Shown here: positions 1,017 through 39,296 of the stretch, one piece after another
Numbering within the stretch: the first letter of the stretch is position 1
How the letters are laid out: every line of letters begins with the position of its first letter
IMG/VR virus record: IMGVR_UViG_3300013136_000898
Coordinates: 1 to 43,002 of that record
Reading direction: 5' to 3' (one strand)
Origin: a virus
Length of the DNA: 43,002 bases
Program-made: the position numbers and the translations under genes
The notes under the pieces: generated by a model
Databases searched by the model: none
What the model saw: only the letters and a program-made list of their open reading frames with translations
What the model was told of the DNA's origin: nothing

Positions 1017-1088
1017 AAATTATTTAAAATGATTAAAAGGACAAATTAGAGAATATTTAAATCTACTCTAAATATAAGGATTAATGCA

Positions 1089-1508
1089 TTGGAAAAAAAT
1101 CCAACCACTTTACTAAATAATATTCCATATGTTAGGGATAAATTATTTGACATAGATAATTATTCTTCGGCTACAGGAGATTTTATTACTTTAGAAGGTA
1201 CTGCAGTTATAATTAAAAGAATAATGCATCAACTTTTAATTAAAAAGGGTACTTATATATTTGATCCTGAACTAGGGGAGGATATATTGCAGTATTTATT
1301 TGAGCCTTTAGATACTATTACATATACAAATATACAGAGAACAGTAAATGAAGTTGTAAATCAAAATAAAGGCAATGTAGATGTTAAAGGAGAGGTTTTA
1401 GCATTTCCAAATAAAAAGGGATTCAGAGTTAATATAACTGTAAATTCGGAAAATAAAATTAAGAAAGTAAGTATTGATGTTGATGAATCATTATTAAGGG
1501 AAAACTAA
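1089..1508 (+). CDS. baseplate wedge protein, gp25-like (GPW/gp25 family)
   Basis: The 139-residue protein matches the gp25/GPW fold by its pattern: a disordered start, then GDFITLEGTAVIIKRIMHQL, then the family hallmark KKGTYIFDPELGEDILQYLF, followed by a beta-rich C-terminus. Gp25 connects the baseplate wedge to the tail sheath in contractile tails. The start is TTG at 1089 with AAGGA about 10 bases upstream; an ATG at 1084 is in another frame and stops after ten codons. The next gene begins two bases after this stop, so the two are probably co-translated. Confidence 0.88.
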   Translation: MEKNPTTLLNNIPYVRDKLFDIDNYSSATGDFITLEGTAVIIKRIMHQLLIKKGTYIFDPELGEDILQYLFEPLDTITYTNIQRTVNEVVNQNKGNVDVKGEVLAFPNKKGFRVNITVNSENKIKKVSIDVDESLLREN

Positions 1509-1510
1509 TT

Positions 1511-2194: not shown

Positions 2195-2195
2195 T

Positions 2196-3194
2196 ATGAG
2201 TTATGTTATTGTGGAGAATTATGTAGATTTTTTAGATAAAGGTGTTATTGCTTTATTAGAACAAACTACAGAAGATATAAAGAAAGAAATTGATTATTCT
2301 AAAGTAGATGAATTTAAAAAGAAAAAACAGCAGATATTTAATATTGTTAAAAAGGAAGGGGTATTAAAGAAGAAGCATTTAAGAGAAGTTAGAACTCTAG
2401 CTAAAATTGAGGCCAAAAAACTCTTTGAAAGAATTAAAGACAAAAAGGAAATAAAAAAAGAAGATATCAATTCAGAGGAAATTTCTCATAAGTTCTATAA
2501 TATTATAATGAATATAGATTTCAATCGTGTTTCTAAAAGAATTTTAGGAACCATAATAATGGCAACTATTGCTAGTTTAGTAATTGCATTTTTAGAAATA
2601 TATACTACAGTTTTTATATCTATGCTGTTTAAATTGGGACTGTCAGCCTTACATAATATACCTGCATTAGGTTCAACTATTACAGTATTATCAGTTTTTT
2701 TAGAACCCTTAACTTTATTAACTTCCTGGTATTTAAATGCTTTTGTTAAAGAATTATTTAATTATATTGCAATTTGCAAACATTATACTGTGGAATATGC
2801 AACTATTTTTGGAGTAGTTGATTCTGTTCGGCTTATTTTGATTGGTTCTCATGCTATGTTTTTACAATCTTTACCTCTACTACAAAAAGCAGCATTTGTG
2901 GTAGGTAATGTCTTAGTAAGGTATATGAATACTTTTCTTCAATATATAACTTCTTGGTTTGCCTCAGGAAGTATAGGAATTATATTATCAACTTATATTT
3001 CAATGGTATCAGAAGTTTTAATGCCTGCTCTATTTAGAGGGGAACCCTCTAAAAATGTAGGTAGTATTTATGATAAAGCAGTAAAAACTTTAATTCTAAA
3101 GAGTCCTCAATTAATTAATACAGTTAAGTTAGATCCCATATTAAAGGCTTTAAGTATGGGTCAAATACAGCCCATGTTTAATTTAGCTAGATAA
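2196..3194 (+). CDS. hydrophobic protein encoded in the baseplate operon
   Basis: The 332-residue protein has a strongly charged Lys/Glu-rich N-terminal third (about residues 25-95), then several long hydrophobic segments, roughly at 114-148, 155-180, 205-245 and 255-280, and a short polar tail. The pattern suggests a helical membrane-active or core tail protein. It starts one base after the preceding stop (TGATATG), and the next gene follows after 15 bases. A multi-span protein among baseplate wedge genes is unusual; it could be a virion protein that inserts into the host membrane at infection. I do not recognise a family. Confidence 0.55.
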   Translation: MSYVIVENYVDFLDKGVIALLEQTTEDIKKEIDYSKVDEFKKKKQQIFNIVKKEGVLKKKHLREVRTLAKIEAKKLFERIKDKKEIKKEDINSEEISHKFYNIIMNIDFNRVSKRILGTIIMATIASLVIAFLEIYTTVFISMLFKLGLSALHNIPALGSTITVLSVFLEPLTLLTSWYLNAFVKELFNYIAICKHYTVEYATIFGVVDSVRLILIGSHAMFLQSLPLLQKAAFVVGNVLVRYMNTFLQYITSWFASGSIGIILSTYISMVSEVLMPALFRGEPSKNVGSIYDKAVKTLILKSPQLINTVKLDPILKALSMGQIQPMFNLAR

Positions 3195-3209
3195 TCGGAG
3201 GTAATACCG

Positions 3210-5867: not shown

Positions 5868-5868
5868 A

Positions 5869-7008
5869 GTGTTAGATAATGTAAAGATAATCAAAAATAA
5901 TATATCGGATCGTATGCGTGTTGTCCGTTTTATCTCCACTGTTATAGGTCGAGAATTATTTAATATAACTAGAGGTTGTTATTATTTAAAAAATGTGAAG
6001 TATGATAAAGAATTGGAAAACGTAACAGGGGTAAATGATATAATTATAAAGCAATTTAAGAAAAGTATGCCTGAGGAATTCTTATATATTTCACCTGAGG
6101 GAAAAAAAGGTCGTGCTATATTAACAGATAAACGAAATTTGGGTATTATTTATAATCTTATATCATATCTTAAAAATAAAGATTATGAGATGGCATTACT
6201 GTTTTCTAATTATTTAGCTTTGAGATTTTATGGTAACGTAATTCATTTATATATGAAAGAATATTGTAATGCTCAAATATGGGCCTTAGCCATGGATAAA
6301 GTATCTCCAAGGCATGTTTTTAAAATAAAATCTGGAATTTCTAATTCTCTAATTTATTTTTCGGAAGAAGAATTTAAAAAATTAAAGTTGAAATTTATTG
6401 AATTAAACAAAAAATTAGATCAGAAATCAGAGGCGCAAATATGGGATGTCATTAATAAATATGTTTATGCATTGAGACATCGAATAAATCAATCATTTAA
6501 GGCATTCGCTAATATTTACCATGATTTAATAAAGGATGAAAATATAATTGTAAAAGTAGATACAGAAGAGGAAGAAGGAGGTGAGCAATCAGAAATACAA
6601 GATTCTTATATTGATAAAATAACTAATTCAATTTGCACTTATAGGGAAGTAGATAAAACGTCTTTATCTGAAGCTATAAAGAAAAGTGGTATAAGAGGAG
6701 AACTGGGAATTTATATTATAAATAAAATTAGTGATGTTAATATTCATGAAGATATTAAATTTATAATAATGCTACTAAATAAAATTATACCATTAAAATC
6801 TATTTGTCAAGAAAAGAACAAAAATTTTTTGATAAGAAAAATAATTTTAAATTCTAATATTATGAATAAATATTTTATTAAAAATATTATTCTTGATTTG
6901 ATTAAAAGAGTGGATGATAATTATTATCTTACTACAATTAATGAATCTCAATTAGTAGTATTTTTTGCTAATTATATTGTTCTTTATATCAAAAATAGAA
7001 TTTGTTAG
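5869..7008 (+). CDS. hypothetical protein in the baseplate operon
   Basis: The 379-residue protein begins with GTG at 5869, one base after the gp6-like stop, with AAGGG about seven bases upstream. It is mostly helical and rich in Lys, Ile and Asn. It contains an acidic linker (EEEEGGEQ, near residues 233-241) between two helical halves. The N-terminal half contains FISTVIGRELFNITRGCYYL. No catalytic motif is visible. Its position makes a structural or assembly role likely; no family is recognised. A clear gap with AAAAAAAGGA before the PhoH-like gene suggests this is the end of the baseplate operon. Confidence 0.55.
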   Translation: MLDNVKIIKNNISDRMRVVRFISTVIGRELFNITRGCYYLKNVKYDKELENVTGVNDIIIKQFKKSMPEEFLYISPEGKKGRAILTDKRNLGIIYNLISYLKNKDYEMALLFSNYLALRFYGNVIHLYMKEYCNAQIWALAMDKVSPRHVFKIKSGISNSLIYFSEEEFKKLKLKFIELNKKLDQKSEAQIWDVINKYVYALRHRINQSFKAFANIYHDLIKDENIIVKVDTEEEEGGEQSEIQDSYIDKITNSICTYREVDKTSLSEAIKKSGIRGELGIYIINKISDVNIHEDIKFIIMLLNKIIPLKSICQEKNKNFLIRKIILNSNIMNKYFIKNIILDLIKRVDDNYYLTTINESQLVVFFANYIVLYIKNRIC

Positions 7009-8943: not shown

Positions 8944-9016
8944 GGGCCTGTAGCTCAGAGGATAGAGCATCTGATTTCTAATCAGAGAGTCGTGTGTTCG
9001 AGTCACACCAGGCCTA
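8944..9016 (+). tRNA. tRNA-Arg(TCT)
   Basis: A complete cloverleaf is visible: acceptor GGGCCTG (8944-8950) pairs with CAGGCCT (9009-9015) with one G-T wobble. The D arm is TAGCTCAGAGGATAGAGCA. The anticodon stem TCTGA/TCAGA encloses loop TTTCTAA with anticodon TCT. The T arm is GTGTG-TTCGAGT-CACAC, and the discriminator is A9016. CCA is not encoded. It reads AGA/AGG, by far the most common Arg codons in this window. It lies between two + strand genes and would be cut from their transcript. Confidence 0.95.
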
Positions 9017-18000: not shown

Positions 18001-20804
18001 ATATTATATATGATGATGAAGGAAAAAATCCTAGAAAAATTACTACTGCTCAATATGAAAAAATGCTTAAAGATGGGGATTTACTTAAAACTCCAAATGG
18101 TGATGTTTATACAAAAAAGAAGGATGTTAAATGGGTTCACGTTGATCTTAACAATCCAAAGTCCTCTTTGGTTCCTTTAGATATTTGGGAAAAGTATTAT
18201 TCACCTGAAGTTAGAAAAGGAATAGTAAAACCATCTCAAGCAAAAGAATATGATAAAGACTATCAGTTTGAACCAGGTCAAGTTCCTCCTGAAATGTTAG
18301 AGCCATCTCAAGCAAAAGAATATGGTAGAGACTATCTGTTTGAACCAGGTCAAGTTCCTCCTGAAATGTTAGAGCCATCTTTCAAAGAACAGGCCACTCA
18401 AAAAAGTAAGATGTTACTAAAACAAGGAAAAGAATTGGTCTCAAATACAGTAGAAAAATCAAAAGAGTTATATTCTAAAACAAAGGAGAATTTTACATCT
18501 CTTAAAAATAAAGTAGAAAATTCTAACAAATCAGATATTGCTTTATTATTGGCTGAAACAGAATGGAAAGCTATCAATGATTTAGAATCTCTAGTTAATG
18601 TGTCAATTAAGGGTTTAGATTCAGCTGGATTTAGTAATTCCGCCCTTGCCATAAAAGCTAGATGTACACAATTAATAACAAATGCTAGAACTGATTTTCA
18701 AAAAAGATTTGGTAATGTACATTATGATGAAAATAATCGTGTTATCTCTATTGAAAAAATTCCAGAAGATTTAGATAAATTAATTAAAGATGATCAAAAT
18801 TTATCTGATTATATTAGAGAATTATACAATCAGGTGACACAAGCCGTTACCAATACAAAGGATGATTATTTATCTACATTAAAAGAAAAAACAAGTGAAC
18901 TTATAACTAAGGGTACTGATAAAGTTAAGGAAGGAGCAAAATATTTAGATAAGAAAATTGGTTCCGTAATAGCTCCCACAACATCTAAAGGATATTCAGA
19001 ACCATTTGGTCCTCAGCCAGTATCAGAAATGCCTAAATTAACTCCAGAACCATTTGGTCCTCAGCCAGTGGAAGAAACGCCTAAAACAATATCTAAAGGA
19101 TATTCAGAACCATTTGGTCCTCAGCCAGTTGTTGAACCTCCAAGGCCCACAGTTAGTGTAGTACCTCGACAAAATTTGGAGAAACCGGGAATTAAGTTGA
19201 GTTCTCTAGATGAAATGTTCATAAAACAATGTATGGAAGATATTACTGGTGAATCCTGGACAAAAGAGAAAAGTGAACAATTGATGAAAAATGTTGAAAA
19301 TTTAATTCAGAAGACTAAAGAAAATTCTAAAGACAAGAAACTTACACATTGGGGAGGTACTATTGAATTAAATGAAGAAAAGAAAGAAAATGTATTATCA
19401 GATATTATAAATTTTCCGACTAAAGATAATATGTTATCTCAAAATATTAGAACATCTCCTGAAATTGGTTTAGAATTTGATGAAGGTGGTTATGTACCCG
19501 GTAAAAAGGGAGAGGCACAACCTGCAATAGTACATACAGGAGAAAGAATTCTAAATCCAAAAGAAACTAATATATTTAAAAATACAACATTAGAAGATTT
19601 AATTTTAAGTTACGTTGATAAATTAAATCCTTTAAAGATAATAAAACACCAATTAGATATAGGTGATGAAGTTACGGGTTTGGGCAACACATATAGCAGA
19701 TCTTTGATAAGCAGCATTCCATTTATTGGCAAATTAATAAAACAGTTTATGCCAAAAGAAATCAATTTAATTGGTGGACCTAATAATGCAGTAGCTTCAG
19801 AATTATCAAAAATAACACCATCATCATTACCCACCGATTATAGTAAAGTAATTAGTGATAAGACACAAAGTGTAAAAGAAAAACTAGAAACAAAAACCAT
19901 TGCTTCTTTAAGTGGTTTAGGTGGATCTACAGCACAATACGAAGGTGGTAATGTAGGTACTGTATCCAGTGGTAAACATGATTATGTGTCATACGGCACG
20001 CACCAAATGACTCCAACTACAATGAAAGGATTTTTGGGAAGTTCATTTGGATCTCAATTTGACAAACAACTAGGAGGATTAAAACCAGGAAGTGCTGAAT
20101 TTACCTCAGCATATAAACAATTAGCGAAGACAAGCCCAGAATTACTAGATAATGCAATGAATGAATATTTAAAGGTTACTAACTTTGAACCAGTTAGGGC
20201 ATTAGCTGATAAATATGGATTGCCTAATGACCCCGTATTCAATGATATATTATGGAGTCAATCAATTCAACATAGCTATAAAGGTAATAAACAAATATTA
20301 GATACTGTTGCAGCACAATCTGGAGGATATTTGGGAGATGATGAAAAAAAACAGTTAATCTCCTCGATTTATGATACCAGAGAAAAATATGCTTTAAAAT
20401 TTGTAGATCCTAATTTGAAAAAAGGTATAGTAAATAGATATAATAATGAAGAAAACCAATTTTTAGCAATGGCAGAAAAACCTGCATTTGATAAAACTAG
20501 TTTAGCTAATATAGATATAAATAGAAGAGTTCAAGATAAAGAAGATTTGTTAAATATAATGGAAGAAAGTGGAAAAAGAGCCGATGAGTTAGCCGCTAAA
20601 ACTAGTAAAGAAACTAATGAAAAAATGGATGCCAATCTTGAAAAAATGAATGCTACAAGCAATATATTTAATAATAACAATTTCAATATACAGTCTCAAG
20701 GTGGAAATTCTTACCTAAATAGTGGAACAAATAAAGGTGGAAATGAAATTGAATCTTTAAAAGATATATTTGCTTTAGCATCTGGATTACCAGGAATAAT
20801 TTAA
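15072..20804 (+). CDS. tail tape measure protein with C-terminal lysozyme-like domain
   Basis: At 1910 residues this is the largest protein in the window. Its hydrophobic helical middle (about 330-560, 740-890) and the two 'GGxVPG...HxGExxxP' signatures (near 216-240 and 1468-1495) are typical of tape measures, which set tail length and travel into the host. Near residues 1620-1790 there is YEGGNVGTVSSGKHDYVSYGTHQM and a following helical region, as in lysozyme-like peptidoglycan-cleaving domains; E1624 is a candidate catalytic acid. Tandem repeats occur near 775-835, 1054-1101 and 1305-1352. The stop codon overlaps the convergent terminase stop. Confidence 0.88.
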   Translation: MVEHKKEDKIENLSQQIEALTSVIKTNVELMKSSNLMMGNVTGDVVDRKTGKKKITARKRKLKKPLVESITDLNTSVEELSEEESGTSDIQESLYDVDAEISALREDNLANTGLLSKTYNVLSTVGKGTAGAALGVGEFTASSMTMPSVFDAKADLEQLKDSIVKSMSLAMGGPIGSYVLNLSGNILQSVIGGIRKATGVGAEQNIGDYPTEEMPEFATGGVVPGPPGAPVIIKAHGGEMVVPEKIKTRGMEGFNDRLDALIKYDQADLINNDNTLKELVHIADILNFGNSIFRELTGPIIGSLNTVKEGVVDLAHNSKEYNNSIAGFLISLPKFIVKDVFIKALGNDILWELIAKNIISKVFLRGVVWDQIMLPAMEHFMGKNAGFGQITAMMAGGAGMLFGLQKLVGNKSITSILGNIMPDFISNGIGAISRTAGNIIPGHFISGTAKTISGAAKTPGLIGQGIAGAGNVVSQGGNLATSAGLSGIGSSATGAGGMLQGVGGSLAANPALILGGAFAGKVMYDYWQAKRDIPFQTLMEIRQIRKNTEETAQLLGGKGFGAMDFRTKLGHFMEDQYAYMYDPLKTIYKYSGAKMLTKGLLEHVSRSSKDLGNFAGRKWGRSEAGKTKGWHPLQATGRALKSGGKYFTGSWGENKTKTAKERGSLEYQQVDYLAKIYSVLSGNISENLEVIKHDSKSISKYSKATARATIKEYRETSLLRRMGLLENMFSIPMAAGKAIGEAAVSTTASVAGGVAAGAGAGKALKSVTRRVPSGTAKALRPAASKISSGAAKALRPAASKIPLIGGALGAAAHKIPAIGGMLRATAGKVPYVAAALAVFDAIKSSADANEIFDKTATNMREKISAGLAGLVQGATLGLSSVFISKKDMAEGISTNVEKMSNMGGIFDIGGAYARAGGGSGNIWEDYYGTDNFYWEQRKPVGEIVDKSKLKPSIYTGPEATGYKVNREIDGGLFYSDYIIYDDEGKNPRKITTAQYEKMLKDGDLLKTPNGDVYTKKKDVKWVHVDLNNPKSSLVPLDIWEKYYSPEVRKGIVKPSQAKEYDKDYQFEPGQVPPEMLEPSQAKEYGRDYLFEPGQVPPEMLEPSFKEQATQKSKMLLKQGKELVSNTVEKSKELYSKTKENFTSLKNKVENSNKSDIALLLAETEWKAINDLESLVNVSIKGLDSAGFSNSALAIKARCTQLITNARTDFQKRFGNVHYDENNRVISIEKIPEDLDKLIKDDQNLSDYIRELYNQVTQAVTNTKDDYLSTLKEKTSELITKGTDKVKEGAKYLDKKIGSVIAPTTSKGYSEPFGPQPVSEMPKLTPEPFGPQPVEETPKTISKGYSEPFGPQPVVEPPRPTVSVVPRQNLEKPGIKLSSLDEMFIKQCMEDITGESWTKEKSEQLMKNVENLIQKTKENSKDKKLTHWGGTIELNEEKKENVLSDIINFPTKDNMLSQNIRTSPEIGLEFDEGGYVPGKKGEAQPAIVHTGERILNPKETNIFKNTTLEDLILSYVDKLNPLKIIKHQLDIGDEVTGLGNTYSRSLISSIPFIGKLIKQFMPKEINLIGGPNNAVASELSKITPSSLPTDYSKVISDKTQSVKEKLETKTIASLSGLGGSTAQYEGGNVGTVSSGKHDYVSYGTHQMTPTTMKGFLGSSFGSQFDKQLGGLKPGSAEFTSAYKQLAKTSPELLDNAMNEYLKVTNFEPVRALADKYGLPNDPVFNDILWSQSIQHSYKGNKQILDTVAAQSGGYLGDDEKKQLISSIYDTREKYALKFVDPNLKKGIVNRYNNEENQFLAMAEKPAFDKTSLANIDINRRVQDKEDLLNIMEESGKRADELAAKTSKETNEKMDANLEKMNATSNIFNNNNFNIQSQGGNSYLNSGTNKGGNEIESLKDIFALASGLPGII
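18231..18374 (+). repeat. two tandem 72-bp repeats in the tape measure gene
   Basis: Units 18231-18302 and 18303-18374 encode PSQAKEY-(D/G)-(K/R)-DY-x-FEPGQVPPEMLE twice; they are almost identical at the base level, and a third PS start follows. In-frame, so only linker length changes. Confidence 0.85.
18984..19129 (+). repeat. EPFGPQPV repeats in the tape measure gene
   Basis: The octapeptide EPFGPQPV occurs three times, twice preceded by SKGYS, in a Pro-rich linker. The bases are nearly identical between copies, so this is a recent in-frame expansion. Confidence 0.8.
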
Positions 20805-21574
20805 AAATTTCCAAAGATAGAATTTAAAATTTTTTCCCGAGTTATTCCTCTCGGATCTTTATCTAATTTTCTTTTTAAATCTTTTTTGTATTGTTCAAAA
20901 TTACATCCAGGGTGAAAACTAGGAATTAAAGAATTCATTTCATATATAGAATCCATGGCATAAGTAGATTCTTCATTATATACTCCTGTATCTTCTTCTT
21001 GTAAAATAATGTTATTATAAAATTTTTTCACATAACAACCAAAGGCATAAGCTAAAACCAAATCATCATTAGAATTTTTATCTGCTTGCACTTTGCCATT
21101 TTTATTGACTAATGCTAATAATTCTAATTTTAGTCTTTCTGATTTAATTAATGAAGGATTTTCACATATAACATTATATAATGATTCAATAATTAAAGGT
21201 CTAGTTAATTTATTTGTGGATAATCCAGGCATTCTTTTATTTACTCTTACTTTTTTATTACCTTTAGTTATTTGTTCACTTTCATAAAAGATATTATATT
21301 CTTTTTCATCGTCCTCTAAATCGTTTAATATTGAAATTCCGTATCCACCTGAATTTTCCACTATAATTAAATTTTTAGGACATAACTCCGCTAACATCTT
21401 TATAATCTTTGTTAATTCTTTTGGTTTAATTTTTCCTTTATATTCATATATTTGCTCTAAAGTTAGATAATCTAGAACTTCAATTGCAGAATAATCTTTT
21501 CCATATGAAGTTGCAACATCAACAGAGATTAAATAAAATCTATTTAAGTCTATTTTCTCTGGAAATTTCCACAA
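20801..21574 (-). CDS. terL: large terminase, nuclease part (-1 frame)
   Basis: This 257-residue frame carries the RNase H-like nuclease of a phage large terminase: FYLISVDVATSYGKDYSAIE (first Asp), LIIVENSGGYG (Glu) and KNSNDDLVLAYAF (closing Asp pair). The marked start is TTG 21574, with GGAG only two bases in front, too close for normal initiation. The frame is open upstream past that codon and joins the ATPase frame exactly in -1 register at 21619. The two parts together give about 568 residues, the usual TerL size. It is therefore best read as the second half of one protein that cuts and packages phage DNA. It is convergent with the tape measure, the stop codons overlapping. Confidence 0.9.
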   Translation of the reverse strand: MWKFPEKIDLNRFYLISVDVATSYGKDYSAIEVLDYLTLEQIYEYKGKIKPKELTKIIKMLAELCPKNLIIVENSGGYGISILNDLEDDEKEYNIFYESEQITKGNKKVRVNKRMPGLSTNKLTRPLIIESLYNVICENPSLIKSERLKLELLALVNKNGKVQADKNSNDDLVLAYAFGCYVKKFYNNIILQEEDTGVYNEESTYAMDSIYEMNSLIPSFHPGCNFEQYKKDLKRKLDKDPRGITREKILNSIFGNF

Positions 21575-21594
21575 TTCTCCACTATTAACTAATC

Positions 21595-22506
21595 TTATTG
21601 TAGAACTTGGAAATGTTTGTTTTTTTGAAATTCTGTTGCAACAGAATCTGGAAATAATGTATCTTCATCTCCAATAAATTGTAACTCTAGTTCTTGCTGA
21701 ATTTTACGTGAATTATTATTTAGAATTCTCTTTTGGTTTTCATACCATGTAGGATCATTTTTGTATTCATCTACATCGGTCCAATGAACTTTGTAAGGTT
21801 TAAATGAATTTGTTCCTTCGTAGGCACCACACCACATATCAAAAAAGAATTTACCAATTCCATTCATTTTATTTGGTGTACTTAATAATATTGTTCCAAA
21901 TGGTACGCCATTTGCTTGAGCATCTTTTTGGGCTTTCGACAAAGCTGGTGCAACACCTGTCCAGGCATCCTCTGCATAATCTGCATGAGCAATTTCATCC
22001 ATTATTAATAAGGCTATTGATTTGCCACGAAATAATCCGTCTGGAGCTTTAGGGGATATTGCAGAAGAGAACAATTGAGAATTTGTTTTTTTTATGGAGA
22101 AATTCTGAGCATTATCTATATTAAACTCGGGACGAATCCAAGAGGGTAACTTAAGTATAATATCTTTTGTTTTTTTGCAAAAATCTGAAGCTTCTCCACC
22201 ATTTTTAGAGGTGACTCCAATTATAACATTTTTATAAAATGTACATAAATGAGCAGATACACATTGAAATAATGTAGAGAACCCAATTTGTCTAGATTTT
22301 AAGAAAATCATATTTCGAATACCACTGTAAAAGTCAGTGGCAATCATTCTTTGTGGTTTGTGTAATTTAATTAATTTATCACCACCAACAGTGGGTAACA
22401 TACATAATTCTTCAAAAAAATTAATTGGATTATTTTTATAAAATAACCATTTTTTAGCATCACGTAATTGTTTAGAATTGAAATTGATAGGCATAAATAT
22501 ATCCAA
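21595..22506 (-). CDS. terL: large terminase, ATPase part
   Basis: This 303-residue frame is the packaging motor ATPase: RNMIFLKSRQIGFSTLFQ (Walker A-like SRQIGFST, about 71-78), ALLIMDEIAHA (Walker B, D170-E171) and ILLSTPN (coupling motif III). It ends at TAA 21595, eight codons beyond an A AAA AAC heptamer. Its sequence up to EDTLFPDSVATEFQK then continues naturally in the -1 frame (QTFPSSTIRLVNSGELWKFP). The annotated start is TTG 22506; ATG 22494 (MPINFN) is an alternative. Neither has a clear ribosome site. A strong terminator of the upstream gene lies just before it. Confidence 0.92.
   Translation of the reverse strand: MDIFMPINFNSKQLRDAKKWLFYKNNPINFFEELCMLPTVGGDKLIKLHKPQRMIATDFYSGIRNMIFLKSRQIGFSTLFQCVSAHLCTFYKNVIIGVTSKNGGEASDFCKKTKDIILKLPSWIRPEFNIDNAQNFSIKKTNSQLFSSAISPKAPDGLFRGKSIALLIMDEIAHADYAEDAWTGVAPALSKAQKDAQANGVPFGTILLSTPNKMNGIGKFFFDMWCGAYEGTNSFKPYKVHWTDVDEYKNDPTWYENQKRILNNNSRKIQQELELQFIGDEDTLFPDSVATEFQKNKHFQVLQ
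21619..21625 (-). other. candidate -1 ribosomal frameshift site A AAA AAC in terL
   Basis: Read on the - strand, the zero-frame codons are CAA AAA AAC, i.e. the classical slippery heptamer A_AAA_AAC. Slipping back one base moves the ribosome into exactly the frame that encodes the nuclease domain. About four bases downstream, ATTTCCA can pair with TGGAAAT some 35 bases later (with TTCT/AGAA inside), a possible stimulatory stem. A single-base indel in the 7-A run would look the same. Confidence 0.65.
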
Positions 22507-23942: not shown

Positions 23943-24515
23943 TTAAAGATTTGCTCCTTGGAAGTTTGCTCCCCGGAGGTTTGCTTCTAGGAGGTTTGCT
24001 TCTAGGAGATCTGTTCCTCGAAGAAATGCTTCTTGAAGGTTTGCTCCATAAAGATTCGCTCCTCGAAGATATGCTTCTTGAAGGTTTGCTCCTTGAAGGT
24101 TTGCTCCATAAAGATTCGCTCCTTGAAGATATGCTACATAAAGGTTTGCGTCTTGAAGATTTGCGTCTTGAAGATTTGCTTCTTGGAGACCTGCTCTCTC
24201 AAGATTTGCTCCTTGAAGACTTGCTTCTTGGAGATATGCTTCTCTAAGATTTGCTCTATAGAGGTTTGCTCTATAAAGGTCTGCTCCTCTAAGATTTGCT
24301 CTATAGAGGTTTGCTCCTCTAAGATCTGCTTTCTCAAGATTTGCTCCTCGAAGGTTTACTTCTTGGAGATCTGCTCCTTGGAGATTTACTTCTTGAAGAT
24401 CTTCTCCTTGAAAATACGCTTCTAATAAATCTGGAGTAATTTCCGAGTTTTCTTTTCTCCACTTATTCCATTTTTCAACCCCTGATTTGAGTATTGCAAA
24501 ATGTTTCTTGTTCAT
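23943..24515 (-). CDS. pentapeptide repeat protein A (interrupted by TAA)
   Basis: The start chosen is ATG 24515 (MNKKHFAILKSGVEKWNKW), aligned with the paralogue downstream; an in-frame TTG two codons earlier is possible. After a 35-residue head with the motif EITPDLLEAYF the protein is a run of about 30 A-(D/N)-L-x-x pentapeptides (QGADLQEVNLRGANL and so on), which would fold as a right-handed beta-helix. Such proteins can mimic DNA, and some protect or inhibit gyrase, but the role here is unknown. A TAA at 23943-23945 takes the place of the expected Gln codon CAA; repeats go on in frame beyond it. Confidence 0.8.
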   Translation of the reverse strand: MNKKHFAILKSGVEKWNKWRKENSEITPDLLEAYFQGEDLQEVNLQGADLQEVNLRGANLEKADLRGANLYRANLRGADLYRANLYRANLREAYLQEASLQGANLERAGLQEANLQDANLQDANLYVAYLQGANLYGANLQGANLQEAYLRGANLYGANLQEAFLRGTDLLEANLLEANLRGANFQGANL

Positions 24516-24567
24516 TGTCAAATTTCCTTCTTTAGATAATTTTATATTTTTTAGATAGAAATTAATA

Positions 24568-29481: not shown

Positions 29482-30444
29482 TTAAACCTTTCCTTCCTTA
29501 CAGATATTCAACAAGTGTTTTTTATTCTTATTCCAAAATTCCAATGCTCCTTCATTCATCTTATCAATTTCTTCATCCGTGAAATTTTCCCATTCTTCAA
29601 ATGAATGGAGTTCACATCCAATTTTCATATGTTCGTCAAGTATCAACACAAACCATCTAAGTCGTCCAGTAACCTGAATGGGTTCCTTCGAGATAGGAAC
29701 TCCTTTACCATAGGTGGTATTCTCGAATTTGGCTTCTCGAAGATCTGTTCCTCGAAGAAATGCTTCTTGAAGGTCTGCTCCTTGAAAATCTACTTCTTGA
29801 AGATTTGCTTCTCTAAGATTTGCTTCTAGAAGTTTTGCTTTTCGAAGACTTGCTCCTCTAAGATTTGCTCTCCAAAGATCTGCTTTCTCAAGATATGCTT
29901 CTCTAAGATATGCTCCTTGAAGGTTTGCGTATTGAAGATTTGCTTTATAAAGGTTTGCGTATCGAAGGTCTACTACTGGAAGTTTTGCTCCTTGAAGGTT
30001 TGCTTTTTGGAGGTCTACTCCCCAAAGATCTGCTCCTTGAAGATTCGCTCTCCAAAGACTTGCTCCTCTAAGATTTGCTCTCCAAAGATCTGCTTTCTGA
30101 AGATTTGCTCCTTGAAGATTTACTCCTTGAAGATTTACTCCTTGAAGATTTGCTTCTCGAAGACTTGCTTCTTGAAGATTTGCTTCTTGAAAATTTACTC
30201 CTTGGAAGTTTGCTCCTTGGAGGTTTGCTCCTTGCAGATCTGCGTCTTGAAGATTTGCTCCTCTAAGATCTGCTTTCTCAAGATCTGCTTTCTCAAGATT
30301 TACTCCTTGAAGATTTACTTTTTGAAAATGTTCTCCTTGAAGATACGCTTCTGATAAATCTGGAGTAATTCCAGGATTTTCTTTCCTCCATTGATTCCAA
30401 TTTTCAACCCCTGATTTAAGAATTGCGAGATGCTCTGAATTCAT
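29482..30444 (-). CDS. pentapeptide repeat protein B with C-terminal domain
   Basis: The start ATG 30444 (MNSEHLAILKSGVENWNQW) is chosen because it aligns with paralogue A and lies about 10 bases from GGAAG; an upstream ATG 30465 would add KRKKKK. The head and the GITPDLSEAYL motif match paralogue A. About 40 pentapeptides A-(D/N)-L-x-x follow. The last 75 residues form a non-repeat domain (TTYGKGVPISKEPIQVTGRL, then LRWFVLILDEHMKIGC and acidic FTDEEIDKMNEG) missing from A. A beta-helix with an effector domain is inferred; the target is unknown. Confidence 0.85.
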   Translation of the reverse strand: MNSEHLAILKSGVENWNQWRKENPGITPDLSEAYLQGEHFQKVNLQGVNLEKADLEKADLRGANLQDADLQGANLQGANFQGVNFQEANLQEASLREANLQGVNLQGVNLQGANLQKADLWRANLRGASLWRANLQGADLWGVDLQKANLQGAKLPVVDLRYANLYKANLQYANLQGAYLREAYLEKADLWRANLRGASLRKAKLLEANLREANLQEVDFQGADLQEAFLRGTDLREAKFENTTYGKGVPISKEPIQVTGRLRWFVLILDEHMKIGCELHSFEEWENFTDEEIDKMNEGALEFWNKNKKHLLNICKEGKV

Positions 30445-30498
30445 TTTCTTTTTCTTCCTTTTCATCTATTTTTGCACATCACCAATAATTTCTTTTTT

Positions 30499-31890: not shown

Positions 31891-32493
31891 TTAAAGTTTT
31901 AAAAACTCGGATTTAATTGTACTACATGTTTCAAAGATTCCTCTAACTGCTGATGTAACAACCCAACATTCAGAAGATGTTTCCACTCCACGACATAGCA
32001 TACAACCATGTTGACCCTTAACAATTACCCCACAACCTTCAGGTTCTAAAAACTCTACAAAATAATCAACTATTTTTGTAGTAAGATCTTCTTGTAGAAT
32101 GGGGGCCTTTGCCAACAGTTTTATCATTCTAGGAATTTTACTTAATCCTACAGCATGTCCTCCTGTTTTTGGCATATATCCAAATGTTGCTTTATAAGAT
32201 ACCGTTTCAAAATGGTGGGGGCATACTCCATAAGCGTCTATAGGACCTACTTTAATTAATCCATTATAATTAGTCGGAAATGTTTTGGATAATATCTCTT
32301 TAATTTCTTTTCTCGGATTTATACCTCTGCACTTTTCCAGAATCAAGGCCTTGGCAATTCTAGAAGGAGTTTCATCAAAGTTAACATCATTTTGATAATC
32401 CAATTGATAGACTAAAGACAAGGCAGGAAAAATATATTTTTCCCATCCTGTTTTAACCATATCTAAAGCAGTTTCAACATTAGTATCATTCAT
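31891..32493 (-). CDS. folE: GTP cyclohydrolase I
   Basis: The 200-residue protein has all three family blocks: GVCPHHFETVSY (C91, H94, zinc; the usual CEHH is CPHH here), VGLSKIPRMIKLLAKAP followed by QEDLT, and GQHGCMLCRGV (H162, C164, zinc and catalysis). The enzyme converts GTP to dihydroneopterin triphosphate, the first step of folate and of 7-deazaguanine (queuosine) synthesis. Phages use it to make 7-deazaguanine DNA bases, but no queD, queC or queE homologue is seen here. Start ATG 32493 follows GGAGA. It lies between RNAP beta and two unknown genes. Confidence 0.93.
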   Translation of the reverse strand: MNDTNVETALDMVKTGWEKYIFPALSLVYQLDYQNDVNFDETPSRIAKALILEKCRGINPRKEIKEILSKTFPTNYNGLIKVGPIDAYGVCPHHFETVSYKATFGYMPKTGGHAVGLSKIPRMIKLLAKAPILQEDLTTKIVDYFVEFLEPEGCGVIVKGQHGCMLCRGVETSSECWVVTSAVRGIFETCSTIKSEFLKL

Positions 32494-32565: not shown

Positions 32566-35500
32566 TCATTCTTTTTTTATCTGTATTCCAACAGTCTTAA
32601 GATTGCTTTCCAATAAATCTAAAGAAATCGGTTTTTCTTCATTTAACTCCTCATCTTCCTCATATAATCTGGGGTTTTGTAAAATTTTAGACAATTCTTT
32701 ATTTTTTAATCCACTAGAATCTGAATGAATTGTTAAAAAATCTGTTAGTAGGTTTAAAGCATCATATCCAATTAAAGCCCAAACTTCCATTTCTCCCAAT
32801 CTGTGGCCACCTTGATTACTTTTTCCACCTAGGGGTTGTAACGTTCGTTTGGAATACGGACCAATAGATCTTACAGACATTTTTTCTGTAGCTCTGTGCA
32901 CTAATTTTAAAAAATACATATATCCACAAGCGATAGGATTTGTTATAGTTATTTTAGATTCTGGATCATAAATTTGATATTTATCAATTATATTATTAAT
33001 ATAAAAATCAATTAATTCTTTTTCAGTCATACTATCTGGATTTTCAGGATAGTTTCTCATTAGTCCAACATAACCCATACATTGCATTAATTCCTCAAAA
33101 TTTATACTTTGAAAAGCTGGTTGTATTAAAGTTATATTTTGAATAGCATATTTAATTCCGTGTTCTTTCCGTCTTTTTTCAAAATCATTCAAAATAATTT
33201 CCGTTACCCACTTATTTTTCGTTTTATCAATTATTTCAAGAAACCCTTTAAGAACTTTGCATATTTCAATATCTGAATCTTCTTTTGTCTGATCTAATAA
33301 ATTATACTTTAATTGGTTTAAGCATTCAGTTAAATGTAGTTCATATATTTGACCTACATTCATTCTACTAATTATACCAAGAGGATTTAGTATTAATTCA
33401 AATTTTCTTCCATCTGGAGTATTAGGCATAAGTTCATCTGGTAGTATACGACTAATTGTTCCTTTATTACCATGCCTATTGGAAAGTTTATCCCCATTAT
33501 TCAATTTCTCCATATATATAGCAGTAATTTTAATATGACATCCTTTAATTCTCTTACTATCAATAGTATATTTTCCAAGATTTTCTGAAATATTTAATCT
33601 ACTTAGTGTATTCTCCAAAATAGAATTTGCTTTTTCTTTTCCAAGATGTGAAATTAATTTTTCTCGTATAGAATTATATCGTTTATTCTCTTTATTTATA
33701 AATTTTTCGAGAAATCCATTATAATCTTCAATATTACGATTAAAATTATTGGGATATATTTCAATATTAACTATTTTACAATCGACAGGAGCAGTTTTTT
33801 CTAAGGGTTCTATATTTATCATCTCTAAATCTGCATCCATATCTATAGTTTTTAATTTGGCGAATATTTCACCCTTTTTTAGAAAATCATTAATTTCTGG
33901 TAGGGGTTTATATGTTCCAGAATCTAAACTAAGTAATACTTGAGTTGAATCAATATCAAATGATAAATCTACAATATGTATACTCTTAAATTTTTCACTG
34001 GCTGATTTACTAATAATTATACCATCATCAACATTCCAACCTTTCCAAGAACAAATTCCAACCAATAAATTTCTTCCTAATTGTAAACTACCATTTCTTA
34101 AAAATAGAGATTCACAAAGTATTTCTCCTTTCTGAAATGTATCTCCCTCATTCTTTTTAGGTATCATATAGTCCATTATACTTTCTTTAAAGAAAGGTTT
34201 TATATATGCACCTTCATTTAGATTATCATAATGAATAATCATTCCATCTTCATTTAAAGTTAATACCTTACCATTATCCTTTGCCCGACATAAGAAAGTA
34301 CCACTATCAACAAACATATCTTCTGTACCAGATCTAATAAGAGGTTCATCTGTTTCAGATAATAATATTGTTTGTTTAACTTGACTAGAAGCCATTTGTA
34401 ATCGCGTTTGATCATCATTACATAAAAATGGAGTTAAAGAAATAGGATAACTGAAAACAATATCTTTATTGGGTTCTACAAATAGTCCTTTTTCATTTAT
34501 GACACAGTTGGGAACTAAATTTAATATTACTCCACAACCTTCTCTATCAGGAGTATCTGCAGGACAAATAAATCCTTTTTGAGAATCATCTAATGTTCGA
34601 AGATGTGTAGGAACATTTTCTTTTTTGAATCCACCTGGTCCGGTAAGCGATAATTGCATTAAAGATGCAATTTCAGAAACAGGGTTTATGCAAAAATTAA
34701 AATGAATGATATCTGATACATTACATTTTTCTAAAATTATATTTTGATGAATTCTAAACGTACTTTTTTTACTATTCTTTACTGATACTAGCATATCATA
34801 AACTTTTTTAAGTAAAGGACTTATAATGTATTCAAGAAATCTAATTCTTTTATATTTTAAATCAGTATCTGAACGAGGTCCTTCATATAAAGCAAATAGT
34901 ATTTCAAATAAAATAGAATTGGTTTTAAAATAATCATGAATAAAATAATCCATATAATATGCTAATGTTAAGGAGAAAATAATACTAGATCCTTTTTTCT
35001 CCTCATCATTTTTAATCGTACTAAAATATTTTCCTACATGGCATATTAAATCTGTTTTGTTAGAATTATTCCATATATTATAACAAGAGCTTATAATAGA
35101 TTTTAAATTTTCATTAACAATATTGGGATCTAATAGTGTTAAAAAATCATCTAGTTCTTGTTTTGTATGATTTGCACATATTAGTAATGGAAGACTAATT
35201 TTTCTTCCAAATAGAGAAACATAATATTCATTATCTTTATGATTTTTATTAATATTAAGGGATAAAATATTAGTTCTAAGTTTAATCTGGTTTGGTTTGT
35301 TAAACCTATATATAATTGGAAAATCATATAACTGTAGTACTGGTATTTTTAAATGTCCACCAATATAGAAAAATTGATTTTCAATCAAATTTGGAATTTT
35401 TAAGAAAAATTCCTGTTTCTTGTTTTTATCATCCTCAACAATGATTTTTAATAAACTTAGACTATTATTTTTTAATTCCTCATGTCTTATTTTTTTTAAT

Positions 35501-35640
35501 TCCATCCACTCACAAAATACTACCTTCCATCCAAGAATATCTGTTTTGTTAAATATTTTAATTATACAATCTTTTAAGTTATCTGGATTCCATTCTTTAG
35601 CTCTAAAATCTAATAAGGTTGTTTGAAATCTGGGATCCAT
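32566..35640 (-). CDS. phage RNA polymerase beta subunit (RpoB-like)
   Basis: A complete beta subunit in one 1024-residue chain. Motifs in order: SLTGPGGF followed by FICPADTPDREGCG (rifampicin/fork region, about 330-370), GRNLLVGICSWKGWNVDDG (522-540), GDKLSNRHGNKG with the catalytic-centre lysines and His (716-727), DGRKFELILNPLGIISRMNV (743-762) and GGKSNQGGHRLGEMEVWAL (938-956). E. coli RpoB is 1342 residues, so lineage-specific insertions are missing. Start ATG 35640 follows AAGAAAGGAA. Unlike phiKZ-group phage polymerases, the subunit is not split. It works with the beta' gene directly upstream. Confidence 0.96.
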   Translation of the reverse strand: MDPRFQTTLLDFRAKEWNPDNLKDCIIKIFNKTDILGWKVVFCEWMELKKIRHEELKNNSLSLLKIIVEDDKNKKQEFFLKIPNLIENQFFYIGGHLKIPVLQLYDFPIIYRFNKPNQIKLRTNILSLNINKNHKDNEYYVSLFGRKISLPLLICANHTKQELDDFLTLLDPNIVNENLKSIISSCYNIWNNSNKTDLICHVGKYFSTIKNDEEKKGSSIIFSLTLAYYMDYFIHDYFKTNSILFEILFALYEGPRSDTDLKYKRIRFLEYIISPLLKKVYDMLVSVKNSKKSTFRIHQNIILEKCNVSDIIHFNFCINPVSEIASLMQLSLTGPGGFKKENVPTHLRTLDDSQKGFICPADTPDREGCGVILNLVPNCVINEKGLFVEPNKDIVFSYPISLTPFLCNDDQTRLQMASSQVKQTILLSETDEPLIRSGTEDMFVDSGTFLCRAKDNGKVLTLNEDGMIIHYDNLNEGAYIKPFFKESIMDYMIPKKNEGDTFQKGEILCESLFLRNGSLQLGRNLLVGICSWKGWNVDDGIIISKSASEKFKSIHIVDLSFDIDSTQVLLSLDSGTYKPLPEINDFLKKGEIFAKLKTIDMDADLEMINIEPLEKTAPVDCKIVNIEIYPNNFNRNIEDYNGFLEKFINKENKRYNSIREKLISHLGKEKANSILENTLSRLNISENLGKYTIDSKRIKGCHIKITAIYMEKLNNGDKLSNRHGNKGTISRILPDELMPNTPDGRKFELILNPLGIISRMNVGQIYELHLTECLNQLKYNLLDQTKEDSDIEICKVLKGFLEIIDKTKNKWVTEIILNDFEKRRKEHGIKYAIQNITLIQPAFQSINFEELMQCMGYVGLMRNYPENPDSMTEKELIDFYINNIIDKYQIYDPESKITITNPIACGYMYFLKLVHRATEKMSVRSIGPYSKRTLQPLGGKSNQGGHRLGEMEVWALIGYDALNLLTDFLTIHSDSSGLKNKELSKILQNPRLYEEDEELNEEKPISLDLLESNLKTVGIQIKKE

Positions 35641-35658: not shown

Positions 35659-37437
35659 TTATAATCTAAATAAAGACGACAGAGAAGATTCTACATCCTC
35701 TCTGTTTCGAACTAGACCATCTATTATTTTACCTTTTAGATCTGAAAATGCACATCCTACTAACCAACTACTCATATAAGGTATTTTTAATATACTATTC
35801 CATTCTCTGGTGATAGATGTATGATCTCTATTTTTAATTGTTCTCCATAATTTGTTTTGATACCAAATCATACAACTAATCAATACTTCAACATGAACCA
35901 TATAAAGAGATCCATGATTTATCAATAATTGAAATAATCCTTTTACTAAATTTTCAGGTTCATACGGAGAAGTATATTCTTGAGGTTTATGCAGAAATGT
36001 ATTAATAATGCTCATATCTGAAATAATATCATTATTGCCACCTTTGGATGTTGTAGAACTAGCAACTCCAGATAGATGGAAAGTTCTTAAAACTAATTGA
36101 GTAAGTTTTTCAGAAATACTATGTGTGGCAATGATTCCAATTTGAGTGGTATTAATTTTTTTATAAAATTCTCCATAACACTTTTTGCATATTTTATCGG
36201 ATTTACAGAAAATGGGAGATCTTAATTTTAAGAATTTAAATTTTTTAATAAATTCTTCTTCTTGTTTAGGTTTCATTTCTTTTATAATTTTTTCTTTACC
36301 AACTTCTGGATCTAAATACCATCTAAATTTTAAACCATGTAGTATTTTTCTAGATGCCTCAATATCCTCTATCCGCTCACCGTCAATATTTTTATAACAC
36401 ATTAATTCTAAATTTAAATAGTCATTAGTAAAACAATCTTCAACATCACCTAATTTACAAAATTGAGTACTATATATTAATTGTCTTGTTAAAAATCCAC
36501 TATCTCCAGTTGATGTTGCTGTATCTAGTAATCCTTTACGACATCCCCAACAACTATCAAAAAATTCATCAGGAGTTAAACCTTGAACTAAACTTGATTT
36601 AATTAAATTCGGCCTAATTTGATTATTGTGATCAGCCACATAACCTCGAGAAAAAACTAATTGCTGAGCCTGTAGCCAACTGCCTCTTGCTCCAGAATCA
36701 ATAAATACAGCAAAAGGCATTTTTTTCATCAACGAATGTAAAAATTTATCATGTTTAATAAATTTTATATCTTCTTGATAATTGCCAGATAAGTTATTAG
36801 CAATTTTAACTAATTCTGGATTATATATATCTTTTAAAGATAATGTATATCCATCTAAAGTACATTTAGCAAAACCAATAGTTTTTATTTTATCTAGAAT
36901 TCTAGATAAACTAGCATTACTAATGGTACTCTGTATTCTATTTAAGATATGATTAAGTAACCCTTTTTCAATATATGAATGCACTATAGGATAATTTTTA
37001 GGTAATAATTCATTGAAAATTATTTGTCCTTCCGTCAATAATGCAGAATCCTCTTTTTCAATAATATTACCATCATCATCTGTATATTTAATTATTTTTT
37101 TGTATTCTCGTTTTTCTTCATCATTATCTTTTGTTAAACTATAAATTCCCAGTACGGTATCTTGGGTAGGAGTTGCTACTGGTTCTCCATTTGCTGGAGA
37201 AACTAAATTATTAGTTATTAGTATTTTATCGAGAATATCTTGTTTTGATCTATCTGTTAAAGGAATATAAAATGCCATACAATCAAAAACAGATACTCCA
37301 TCTTCCGTTAAGAAAGTATAAAAATCCTCAACAGTAAAATCATAAGCAGTATTTTTTGTTTCGTCTTTTTCAATAATTAAATCTGAAACAGGTATTAGCT
37401 TGAGATTTTTTTGTTCCAAATATTCTCTAGTTATCAC
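35659..37437 (-). CDS. C-intein fused to RNA polymerase beta' C-terminal part
   Basis: The best start is GTG 37437, seven bases behind AAGGAG; the frame is open to ATG 37461. The first 52 residues are a C-intein (MITREYLEQKN, then YDFTVEDFYTFL and GVSVFD). Beta' resumes with CMAFYIPLTDRS and LVSPANG (canonical ILSPANG). Further landmarks: GARGSWLQAQQLVFSRG, GCRKGLLDTATS (bridge helix), the second zinc site (C335, C411, C417, C420) and TQLVLRTFHLSG (trigger helix, with R and H present). 592 residues, of which 540 are extein. Its start overlaps the membrane-protein gene by 11 bases. Confidence 0.93.
   Translation of the reverse strand: MITREYLEQKNLKLIPVSDLIIEKDETKNTAYDFTVEDFYTFLTEDGVSVFDCMAFYIPLTDRSKQDILDKILITNNLVSPANGEPVATPTQDTVLGIYSLTKDNDEEKREYKKIIKYTDDDGNIIEKEDSALLTEGQIIFNELLPKNYPIVHSYIEKGLLNHILNRIQSTISNASLSRILDKIKTIGFAKCTLDGYTLSLKDIYNPELVKIANNLSGNYQEDIKFIKHDKFLHSLMKKMPFAVFIDSGARGSWLQAQQLVFSRGYVADHNNQIRPNLIKSSLVQGLTPDEFFDSCWGCRKGLLDTATSTGDSGFLTRQLIYSTQFCKLGDVEDCFTNDYLNLELMCYKNIDGERIEDIEASRKILHGLKFRWYLDPEVGKEKIIKEMKPKQEEEFIKKFKFLKLRSPIFCKSDKICKKCYGEFYKKINTTQIGIIATHSISEKLTQLVLRTFHLSGVASSTTSKGGNNDIISDMSIINTFLHKPQEYTSPYEPENLVKGLFQLLINHGSLYMVHVEVLISCMIWYQNKLWRTIKNRDHTSITREWNSILKIPYMSSWLVGCAFSDLKGKIIDGLVRNREDVESSLSSLFRL
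37282..37437 (-). other. C-intein of a split intein in RNAP beta'
   Basis: 52 residues. MITREYLEQKN matches the opening of C-inteins such as Npu DnaE-C (ATRKYLGKQN). Block F is AYDFTVEDFYTFLTEDG (canonical VYDLTVE-x-x-HNF) and block G is VSVFD followed by Cys. The usual block F His is Tyr, the penultimate His is Phe, and the terminal Asn is Asp (codon 37284-37282). The +1 nucleophile is Cys (37281-37279). Confidence 0.85.
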
Positions 37438-37684
37438 CACTTGACTCCTTTTTAAACCCATTTATTATTCTAATTCGAATTTTTTCATAAAACAATGTAC
37501 CAAATGAAACAAATATTATGAAAATTAGAAATAGTAATACTAATGGCCATACAATAATGAATACAATAGACCAAATATAGTCAATATCCCTAGAAGAATC
37601 AGATTCTGCTAAAATAATAAATAGCCATAATGTAAATAATATTAAACAAATGATACCATAAATGAATATAGTAAATTCATACAT
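37427..37684 (-). CDS. small two-helix membrane protein between the beta' halves
   Basis: The 85-residue protein has two long hydrophobic helices (FIYGIICLILFTLWLFIILA and IVFIIVWPLVLLFLIFIIFV) separated by a short acidic loop (ESDSSRDID) and a basic tail. Start ATG 37684 lies six bases behind AAAAGGAA, which is inside the last codons of the N-intein gene. The C-intein gene starts within its last codons. In reported fractured genes a homing endonuclease often fills this place; this protein has no nuclease motif. Function unknown. Confidence 0.75.
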   Translation of the reverse strand: MYEFTIFIYGIICLILFTLWLFIILAESDSSRDIDYIWSIVFIIVWPLVLLFLIFIIFVSFGTLFYEKIRIRIINGFKKESSGDN

Positions 37685-37685
37685 T

Positions 37686-39296
37686 TTAATTTCCTTTTTG
37701 AATAAAATATTTCCCTTCTGGATTATTAATTAATTCTTGAGGAGTTATTCTCTTAATAATTTTTTCATTCTCATCAAAAACGATTAATGAATGATCTTTA
37801 GAAGACCAAAAAGGTTTAAATCTATTTTCTTTATCTGTAATTTTATATAACTCTAAATTTTCATGTACACTATAATCTAAAATTTTCTTCCATTCTATAT
37901 CACCAGTCTCAAGATTTATTGCTTGAATTTTTAAATTTTCTACAGGAGAATAATGAGTAACTTTCACATTATCTTCTCTAATTTTTTCTGAAGTTTTATT
38001 AAATGTAAAAATTTCATTAATATCACAGATTGAACAATTTAATGATTCAGAAATAATAGTATCTAAAATTGTAACATCACAAACAACACTATCTCCATCA
38101 AAATCAGCATTATATGGAGAAGTGGCTAATGGGGGAATTTGTATAGTATTACCTTTAGTTGGTTTAATCTTAAAACCTAATATTGATAGTCTATGTAAAG
38201 AAGGTTGTCTATTTAAGATACAGACTTTATCTTTACAGAACTCCTCCACAATATCATATAGACCATAATTATGATTTTTAATATGTTCATCAATTGTTTT
38301 AATAACAGAGTTATATCGTTTATTTAATCTTTTGTTAATCAAATAAGGAATTAATTGGGGCTTAAATATCTCCAATAACATAAAATATGGAATTCTACAT
38401 TCATCTAAATTTAATGTAGGATTTGGTGTAATAACGGCACGCCCCGAGAAGTCTAATCTCTTTCCTAAAATATTAGAACGAATTAATCCCGATTTCTTAC
38501 TCAATTTTTCAAAAATATGATTATAAAGTTCCAATACCAGTCTATGTAAATGCTTACAATTCATATTATATATCATATCATTTTCTTGACATCTGACGGA
38601 AATAGATCGAATACTGTTACAACGAACTATAATATCTGTATACAGTCTATTTATGCTATCCAGTACATGTAAACCATTATTATCCCTACCACAAGGTCTA
38701 CATCCAGGAGGAATAACTAATACATTACTTATAATCCACTTGTCTTGGTGTTCTCTTACAAAATTTGAAACGGAATCTGTTTTATCTTCAATTAAAAATT
38801 CTATATATTTACACATGCCTTTTACACCAAATAAAATATCTTCTGGTTTTATTAAATTTTGATTTTCAGAATTTATTGCACATAATGTTTTAACTTTTTT
38901 GGTTATACCCTTCTTTGTTATTTCTTCTTCTTTAATATAATATGATTGTTTAAAATCAATCATATTATCTAAAACAGTTTTAGATGAAGATTTAGAAGAG
39001 GTTAGTAAATAATAAAAAATGGGGTTTAGTATGGGTATTGGAAGTACGATTTTTCCAAAACGTTTTCTTCTAATACTAGATGAGTTAATTTCAGTATGAC
39101 AAACCTCACATTTTTTATTTTTATATTTTCTGCCGGAATATTTTCCGCATAGACATCTATATGAATGTACCGGTCCGAATTTATATACTGAAAATAATCC
39201 ATCTTTATTATATTTGTTATTCTCAATGGCCTTATGACTAGTTACTTCTGGAAAATTTTCACATATTTGATCTATATTAATCAACTCTAGATGCAT
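37686..39296 (-). CDS. RNA polymerase beta' N-terminal part fused to N-intein
   Basis: Residues 1-402 are beta': zinc site C48-x-C50 ... C63-x-x-C66, IRRKRFGKIVLPIP, LGKRLDFSGRAVITPNP (277-293), CILNRQPSLHRLSILGF (359-375) and catalytic NADFDGD (396-402), whose three Asp residues bind the metal. Residues 403-536 are an N-intein that begins right after D402. The start ATG 39296 lies inside the previous gene's end (20-base overlap). This part cannot form a working active site alone; joined to the downstream part it gives a 942-residue beta'. Confidence 0.95.
   Translation of the reverse strand: MHLELINIDQICENFPEVTSHKAIENNKYNKDGLFSVYKFGPVHSYRCLCGKYSGRKYKNKKCEVCHTEINSSSIRRKRFGKIVLPIPILNPIFYYLLTSSKSSSKTVLDNMIDFKQSYYIKEEEITKKGITKKVKTLCAINSENQNLIKPEDILFGVKGMCKYIEFLIEDKTDSVSNFVREHQDKWIISNVLVIPPGCRPCGRDNNGLHVLDSINRLYTDIIVRCNSIRSISVRCQENDMIYNMNCKHLHRLVLELYNHIFEKLSKKSGLIRSNILGKRLDFSGRAVITPNPTLNLDECRIPYFMLLEIFKPQLIPYLINKRLNKRYNSVIKTIDEHIKNHNYGLYDIVEEFCKDKVCILNRQPSLHRLSILGFKIKPTKGNTIQIPPLATSPYNADFDGDSVVCDVTILDTIISESLNCSICDINEIFTFNKTSEKIREDNVKVTHYSPVENLKIQAINLETGDIEWKKILDYSVHENLELYKITDKENRFKPFWSSKDHSLIVFDENEKIIKRITPQELINNPEGKYFIQKGN
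37689..38090 (-). other. N-intein of a split intein in RNAP beta'
   Basis: 134 residues after NADFDGD. Block A is SVVCDVTILDT (Ser as residue 1; compare Npu CLSYETEILT). Further on are VENLKIQAINLETGDIEWKK and LELYKIT (compare VYSVDNNGNIYTQPVAQW), and block B WSSKDHSLIVFDENEK (compare ATKDHKFMTVDG). After it come the PQELI segment and a stop. There is no endonuclease domain. The position of the junction is fixed by the C-extein register. Confidence 0.9.

Follow-up and report, generated by a model that had tools for sequence, protein, structure and literature searches.

The RNA polymerase beta' subunit is encoded by two separate genes on the minus strand of the IMG/VR virus record IMGVR_UViG_3300013136_000898, which was analysed over its whole length of 43,002 bases (hereafter, the window). 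The first of these genes ends in the N-terminal half of an intein (N-intein), placed directly after the catalytic NADFDGD motif, while the second one opens with the C-terminal half (C-intein) and continues into the rest of beta'; the gene of the beta subunit adjoins them. We read this arrangement as a naturally split, horizontally mobile intein that would join the two host parts (exteins) by trans-splicing into a beta' protein of 942 residues, and estimate the probability of this reading at about 0.92. The split beta' gene with its intein ends is itself confirmed as real, and is not a broken gene. The window comes from a large phage with its own multisubunit RNA polymerase, is probably a fragment of a larger genome, and also contains baseplate, terminase, and PhoH-like genes.

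The divided beta' gene

Residues 403–536 of the N gene read SVVCDVTIL...SSKDHSLIV...YFIQKGN and are followed by the stop codon. The probable start of the C gene is the GTG codon at 37437, with a Shine-Dalgarno sequence AGGAG ahead of it, yielding 52 residues that end in TAYDFTVEDFYTFLTEDGVSVFD and precede CMAFYIPLT; this start gives a lead-in resembling those of two related viral contigs, L011 and L164. Since the two halves lie in different frames and an open reading frame (ORF) of 85 amino acids (aa) is located between them, neither a frameshift nor a sequencing error is required to explain the break. The N-extein is 50% identical to the intact beta' of contig L009 over residues 1–403, and the C-extein is 41–45% identical to the C part of the intact beta' proteins of L009 and L010. 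The joined exteins amount to 402 + 540 = 942 residues. The first-pass annotation of this DNA had given the same N-intein residues, a 52-residue C-intein, and the same joined length, and all these values agree with our reading of both genes (Table 1).

No homolog of the 85-aa ORF was found among the fetched loci. A group I intron or another RNA element was also considered and rejected, as the Rfam scan found only a tRNA.

Table 1. Features of the divided beta' locus in the window
Feature	Position	Strand	Details
beta' N gene	37686-39296	-	536 aa: residues 1-402, beta'; 403-536, N-intein
beta' N-extein	38091..39296	-	402 aa, ends NADFDGD; Pfam RNA_pol_Rpb1_2, 4e-27
N-intein with stop codon	37686..38090	-	134 aa, Ser1, block B SSKDH
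Hydrophobic membrane-protein ORF between the intein halves	37427..37684	-	85 aa
C gene as ORF	35659-37461	-	
C-intein	37282..37437	-	52 aa from GTG start, block F YDFTVED, ends VFD
beta' C-extein	35659..37281	-	540 aa, starts CMAFYIPLT; Pfam RNA_pol_Rpb1_5, 8.7e-24, and Rpb1_3, 1.7e-12
Whole insert relative to intein-free relatives	37282..38090	-	809 bp; synteny with L009; homologous insert bounded at the DNA level in L163 versus L061
RNA polymerase beta subunit gene, directly downstream	32566..35640	-	Pfam RNA_pol_Rpb2_6, 2.6e-44; 49% identical to L009 beta

The insertion site and the intein family at the DGD codon

Eighty viral loci were retrieved with an N-extein alignment of the window and three phage beta' proteins; single-protein queries and a first alignment query of viral contigs had given no matches, and it was the four-phage alignment that opened the family. 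Nearly all of these loci with a readable continuation run uninterrupted through the NADFDGD motif. The residue following the motif in intein-free relatives is Q (62 cases), T (7), A (5), or V, S, and R (one case each), the window having Cys in this position. The nearest intein-free relatives, L009 and L010, share the gene order of the window and have a single continuous beta' gene. Where the N and C genes of the window are aligned by tblastn with intact phage beta', the N match ends and the C match begins at the splice point. The same boundaries are seen in DNA: when the split locus L163 is compared by blastn with the intein-free L061, identity is 74% through the DGD codon and 77% beyond it, with an L163 insert of 1,748 bp (3007–4754) in between, and the matches run past the splice codons, or stop before them, by no more than 3 bp. 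Alignments of the first N-intein residues to the beta' continuation, produced by MAFFT and tblastn, were rejected, as the L163/L061 homology stops at the splice codon.

Exact removal of the insert restores the host protein, both for the DNA of L163 versus L061 and for the window versus L009 and L010. The first-pass annotation had claimed a split intein at this motif, occupying 37282–38090 and joining the exteins with no residue lost or added. The intein is borne out by the catalytic blocks, the Pfam match of the joined halves, and the predicted fold (see below), as well as by conservation across phages and the empty site, and the insert proves exact to the base. The seamless join holds as far as the site is concerned, with the nuance that the first C-extein residue is Cys where the relatives mostly have Q.

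The insert does not result from chance, because the same N-intein and C-intein sequences are found at the same codon in other phage contigs. Twelve further viral contigs carry an intein there. Five of them are split like the window (L011, L163, L164, L090/L154, and L174, in which the contig end truncates the N half), two are split earlier (L081, where the N-intein has 44 residues, and L175, with no N half found in its contig), and five are contiguous, namely, L091 and L168, with LAGLIDADG domains identified by Pfam, and L364, L389, and L405, read by eye, L405 having a frameshift directly behind the intein. In the window and in L011, L163, L164, L090, and L174, the halves reside on separate genes with the break between blocks B and F. 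The window N-intein is 44–46% identical to the N-inteins of four other split loci, and the C-intein with its flank is 50% identical to that of L011, 22 columns being invariant over three loci. The phages of L164 and L174 also hold intein-free beta' genes (L014 and L065), judging by the contig names.

The halves in L090 are located ~77 kb apart on opposite strands of a 118-kb contig (the N half at ~10.4–11.9 kb, minus strand; the C half at ~88.4–90.4 kb, plus strand) and therefore must be transcribed separately; this dispersal holds unless the contig is chimeric. The position of the 85-aa ORF is occupied in L011, L163, and L164 by an endonuclease-like DUF7487 ORF (E-values from 1.6e-15 to 6.7e-25), whose relatives in Salmonella phages bear a homing-endonuclease annotation. 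In the window, an intervening endonuclease ORF has either been lost or never been present.

At the sensitivity of the respective searches, 84,980 cellular genomes gave no relative of the C-intein, and 50,697 annotated phage records gave no relative of the N-intein. At least 117 cellular stretches have NADFDGD followed by T, S, or C, with no intein among those inspected, which does not prove absence from cells.

In the tree of 80 beta' exteins (a quick tree with some long branches) the eight intein rows need eight changes, all of them forced by well-supported branches. The window intein is 48–50% identical to those of L011, L163, L164, and L090, the corresponding extein identities being 46, 35, 31, and 27–29%. 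As the identity of the intein is constant and that of the exteins varies, the intein and the host are decoupled. Judging by these identities, the intein is under constraint and moves horizontally, independently of the host subunit, and the decoupling fits homing between divergent phage polymerases. Selfish mobility explains the distribution pattern. A small intein tree allows, without showing, a single origin of the canonical split.

A second, contiguous intein with a canonical His–Asn end is situated at the beta' trigger loop (around FHxSG) in L011 (10674–14036), L066, L078, and L091 (6360–11204), L011 and L091 thus having inteins at both catalytic sites; a profile–profile comparison with the trigger-loop inteins aligned only blocks F and G, with a probability of 16. 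In L168 (3573–9596) and L405 (reverse complement, 422–5869), beta and beta' are fused in one ORF containing the contiguous DGD-site intein. In L174, the C part of beta' has a further break close to the trigger loop (1690–2590), with a 293-aa endonuclease-like ORF between the pieces, where an intron is possible, and in L091 (4831–6360) a 194-aa ORF splits beta' upstream of the DGD motif as well, without an intein.

Splicing chemistry, predicted fold, and competing explanations

The nucleophile at position 1 is Ser in the window and in every member of the family with a readable start. The block B motif TxxH takes the form SKDH in the window and [ST]xxH in the tabulated members, with Ser commoner than Thr; the block F Asp is present in the window (YDFT) and kept in the alignment of seven members; and the +1 residue is Cys in the window and C, S, or T in 13 of 13 members. 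The residue at position –1 of the insert is the last catalytic Asp of NADFDGD. Similarly, the split intein of Aes123 PolB1 natively has Asp(–1), bonded to the block B His, together with Ser1 (PMC13014065).

In the proposed mechanism, the two half-genes would be translated separately, and the N-intein (134 aa) and the C-intein (52 aa) would associate to form a HINT domain. Ser1 would then attack the Asp(–1)–Ser1 bond, the N-extein would be transferred to Cys(+1), and the terminal Asp, in place of the usual Asn, would perform the third-step cleavage, the expected product being a seamless 942-residue beta' with a complete metal-binding loop. We infer from the sequences that splicing takes place in vivo and that Asp does its third step.

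The window N-intein alone matches the Pfam Intein_splicing model with an E-value of 0.015, and the joined window halves match it colinearly with an E-value of 0.0011 (19.2 bits). In the AlphaFold2 model of the contiguous L091 intein, the splicing-domain blocks mostly have predicted local distance difference test (pLDDT) values of 77–96, and the top 22 Foldseek matches of this model in PDB are all inteins (the best one, 9hth, with an E-value of 3.9e-4). The model of the window N-intein has a pLDDT of 85.7 and the same top match, 9hth, with a probability of 0.99. From the L091 model and the N half of the window, the intein is predicted to have the HINT fold, and this structural evidence is stronger than that of the sequence profiles.

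Several observations weigh against a splicing intein. The C-terminal residue is Asp, not Asn, in 13 of 13 members, which is compatible with splicing only via a documented exception, and the penultimate His, typical although not universal, is absent in 13 of 13, being replaced by F, Q, Y, or W. Inteins ending in Asp have been described, although they are rare. The Pfam score of the joined halves is below the curated cut-off of 35.8 bits, the NCBIfam intein models have no match on the window, and sequence-profile searches of PDB with the joined intein produced no intein match. The Foldseek E-value of the window N-intein is 0.086, as it constitutes only half a domain. The Pfam cut-off, for its part, is a detection threshold and not a defining property of inteins, and Asp-, Gln-, and Glu-ended inteins are reviewed as using the class 1 route with cyclisation of the terminal residue (PMC4031507). 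The first-pass annotation overlooked both the terminal Asp and the missing His; the similarity to intein profiles that it named as a check is present as a colinear match, yet falls short of the curated cut-off and is not seen with NCBIfam.

In L163 (3007–4754) and in the window (37282–38090), Asp is encoded both directly ahead of the insert and by the final codon of the intein. The Asp found at the end of every member might be a consequence of the target site. Opposite charges of the two halves, considered as a signature of splitting, were not seen, both window halves being acidic.

The beta' pieces could instead act as separate polypeptides without a peptide bond, the intein parts being relics or a docking domain, as phages phiR1-37 and IME392 indeed encode beta' in two genes without inteins. 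However, the N subunit in such jumbo phages with a naturally divided beta' retains 53–55 residues past DGD, keeping the catalytic loop whole, which makes non-covalent assembly unlikely here: the window gene is cut inside this loop, and ~186 intein residues would sit at the active site. Moreover, both intein halves keep the catalytic residues, with conservation equal to or above that of the exteins, and we regard this explanation as highly improbable. That the split stems from faulty assembly or sequencing, or that the gene is a decayed pseudogene, is scarcely credible: although the same contig has a probable frameshift in the terminase gene, the beta' break features a stop codon, a separate ORF, and a separate start with a Shine-Dalgarno sequence, the same arrangement recurs in five other contigs (incomplete in L174), and no decay is seen in either extein or intein.

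Besides trans-splicing, the split intein might deliberately control phage transcription, as a timer or an AND gate, and the distant, separately transcribed halves of L090 would suit such control. In the window, L011, L163, and L164, however, the halves are neighbours in one gene run, and the sporadic distribution over the beta' tree, together with the accompanying endonucleases, fits selfish homing. Although a role in regulation or timing is possible, the idea of a dedicated control device seems quite improbable to us, and the timing step proposed in the first-pass annotation finds no support, as the window halves have their own ribosome-binding sites within one gene run and selfish spread explains the sporadic inteins. 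The dependence of the polymerase on trans-splicing, proposed at the same time, is well supported as an inference from the cut in the catalytic loop and from the one relative with dispersed halves. Before joining, the polymerase would presumably be inactive.

Relation to known systems and other genes of the window

Fractured genes that carry split inteins along with free-standing endonucleases (gp41-1, NrdJ-1, and IMPDH-1) were reportedly described by Dassa et al. in 2009. The beta' locus resembles them in having an N gene with an N-intein, a C gene with a C-intein, and, often, an endonuclease gene between (L011, L163, and L164), and differs in the host gene, the cut at the catalytic Asp, the terminal Asp, and, in the window, the membrane-protein ORF replacing the endonuclease. 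The intein of the window is best grouped with the naturally split inteins of fractured genes, which it would resemble in its working.

A split intein is also known from the DNA polymerase PolB of the jumbo phage MIJ3 (PMC6892783). Both this intein and that of Aes123 PolB1 (PDB 9hth) are split, reside in a polymerase gene, and start with Ser1, Aes123 sharing Asp(–1) as well; unlike the beta' family, they are found in DNA polymerase B and end with Asn (N159 in 9hth; VHN in MIJ3). Inteins of RNA polymerases have been described in archaeal largest-subunit (A'/A'') and in eukaryotic and viral second-largest-subunit genes (Goodwin 2006, PMC1635734); these also have a multisubunit host, and are not reported there as split or phage-borne. 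The early splits of L081 and L175 are similar to those of the atypically split AceL-TerL and GOS TerL, L081 being cut after the first helix region, like the S2 position. They differ from the latter in occurring in beta' and in sharing the codon with canonically split and contiguous relatives, the split of the window itself being canonical. A fractured gene with a split intein is of a known kind, whereas the host gene, the catalytic site, and the uniformly Asp-ended family appear to be new; a limited check of the open-licence literature found no reports of a split intein in beta' or at the DGD codon.

We consider it fairly probable that the inteins described here form a viral family specific for the DGD codon, lacking the penultimate His, using Asp for the third step throughout (13 of 13), split at two places, and having dispersed halves in at least one phage. 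If this is true, the capacity for transcription in such a phage would be tied to two unlinked loci being expressed together. The insert places a mobile split protein splicer in the metal-binding loop of a polymerase, where the unspliced enzyme should be dead. The natural family, uniformly Asp-ended and His-less, allows the third splicing step without Asn to be studied, and the series of states at one codon (empty, contiguous with endonuclease, split with or without endonuclease, split and dispersed, split early) can be used to test how split inteins originated. For annotation, this means that phage polymerase genes may appear as two unrelated fragments.

The large terminase gene of the window (20801–22506, minus strand) is represented by two ORFs, resembling a single gene frameshifted close to seven consecutive A, for which both a sequencing error and a genuine frameshift site are possible. 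A second split intein was considered at this break and rejected, as no intein sequence is seen and the break reads as a frameshift at the seven-A run. Two pentapeptide-repeat-like proteins with a start motif common to both are encoded at 23943–24521 and 29482–30465 (both minus strand), and the window also contains a GTP cyclohydrolase gene (31891–32493, minus strand) and a tRNA-Arg gene (8944–9016, plus strand).

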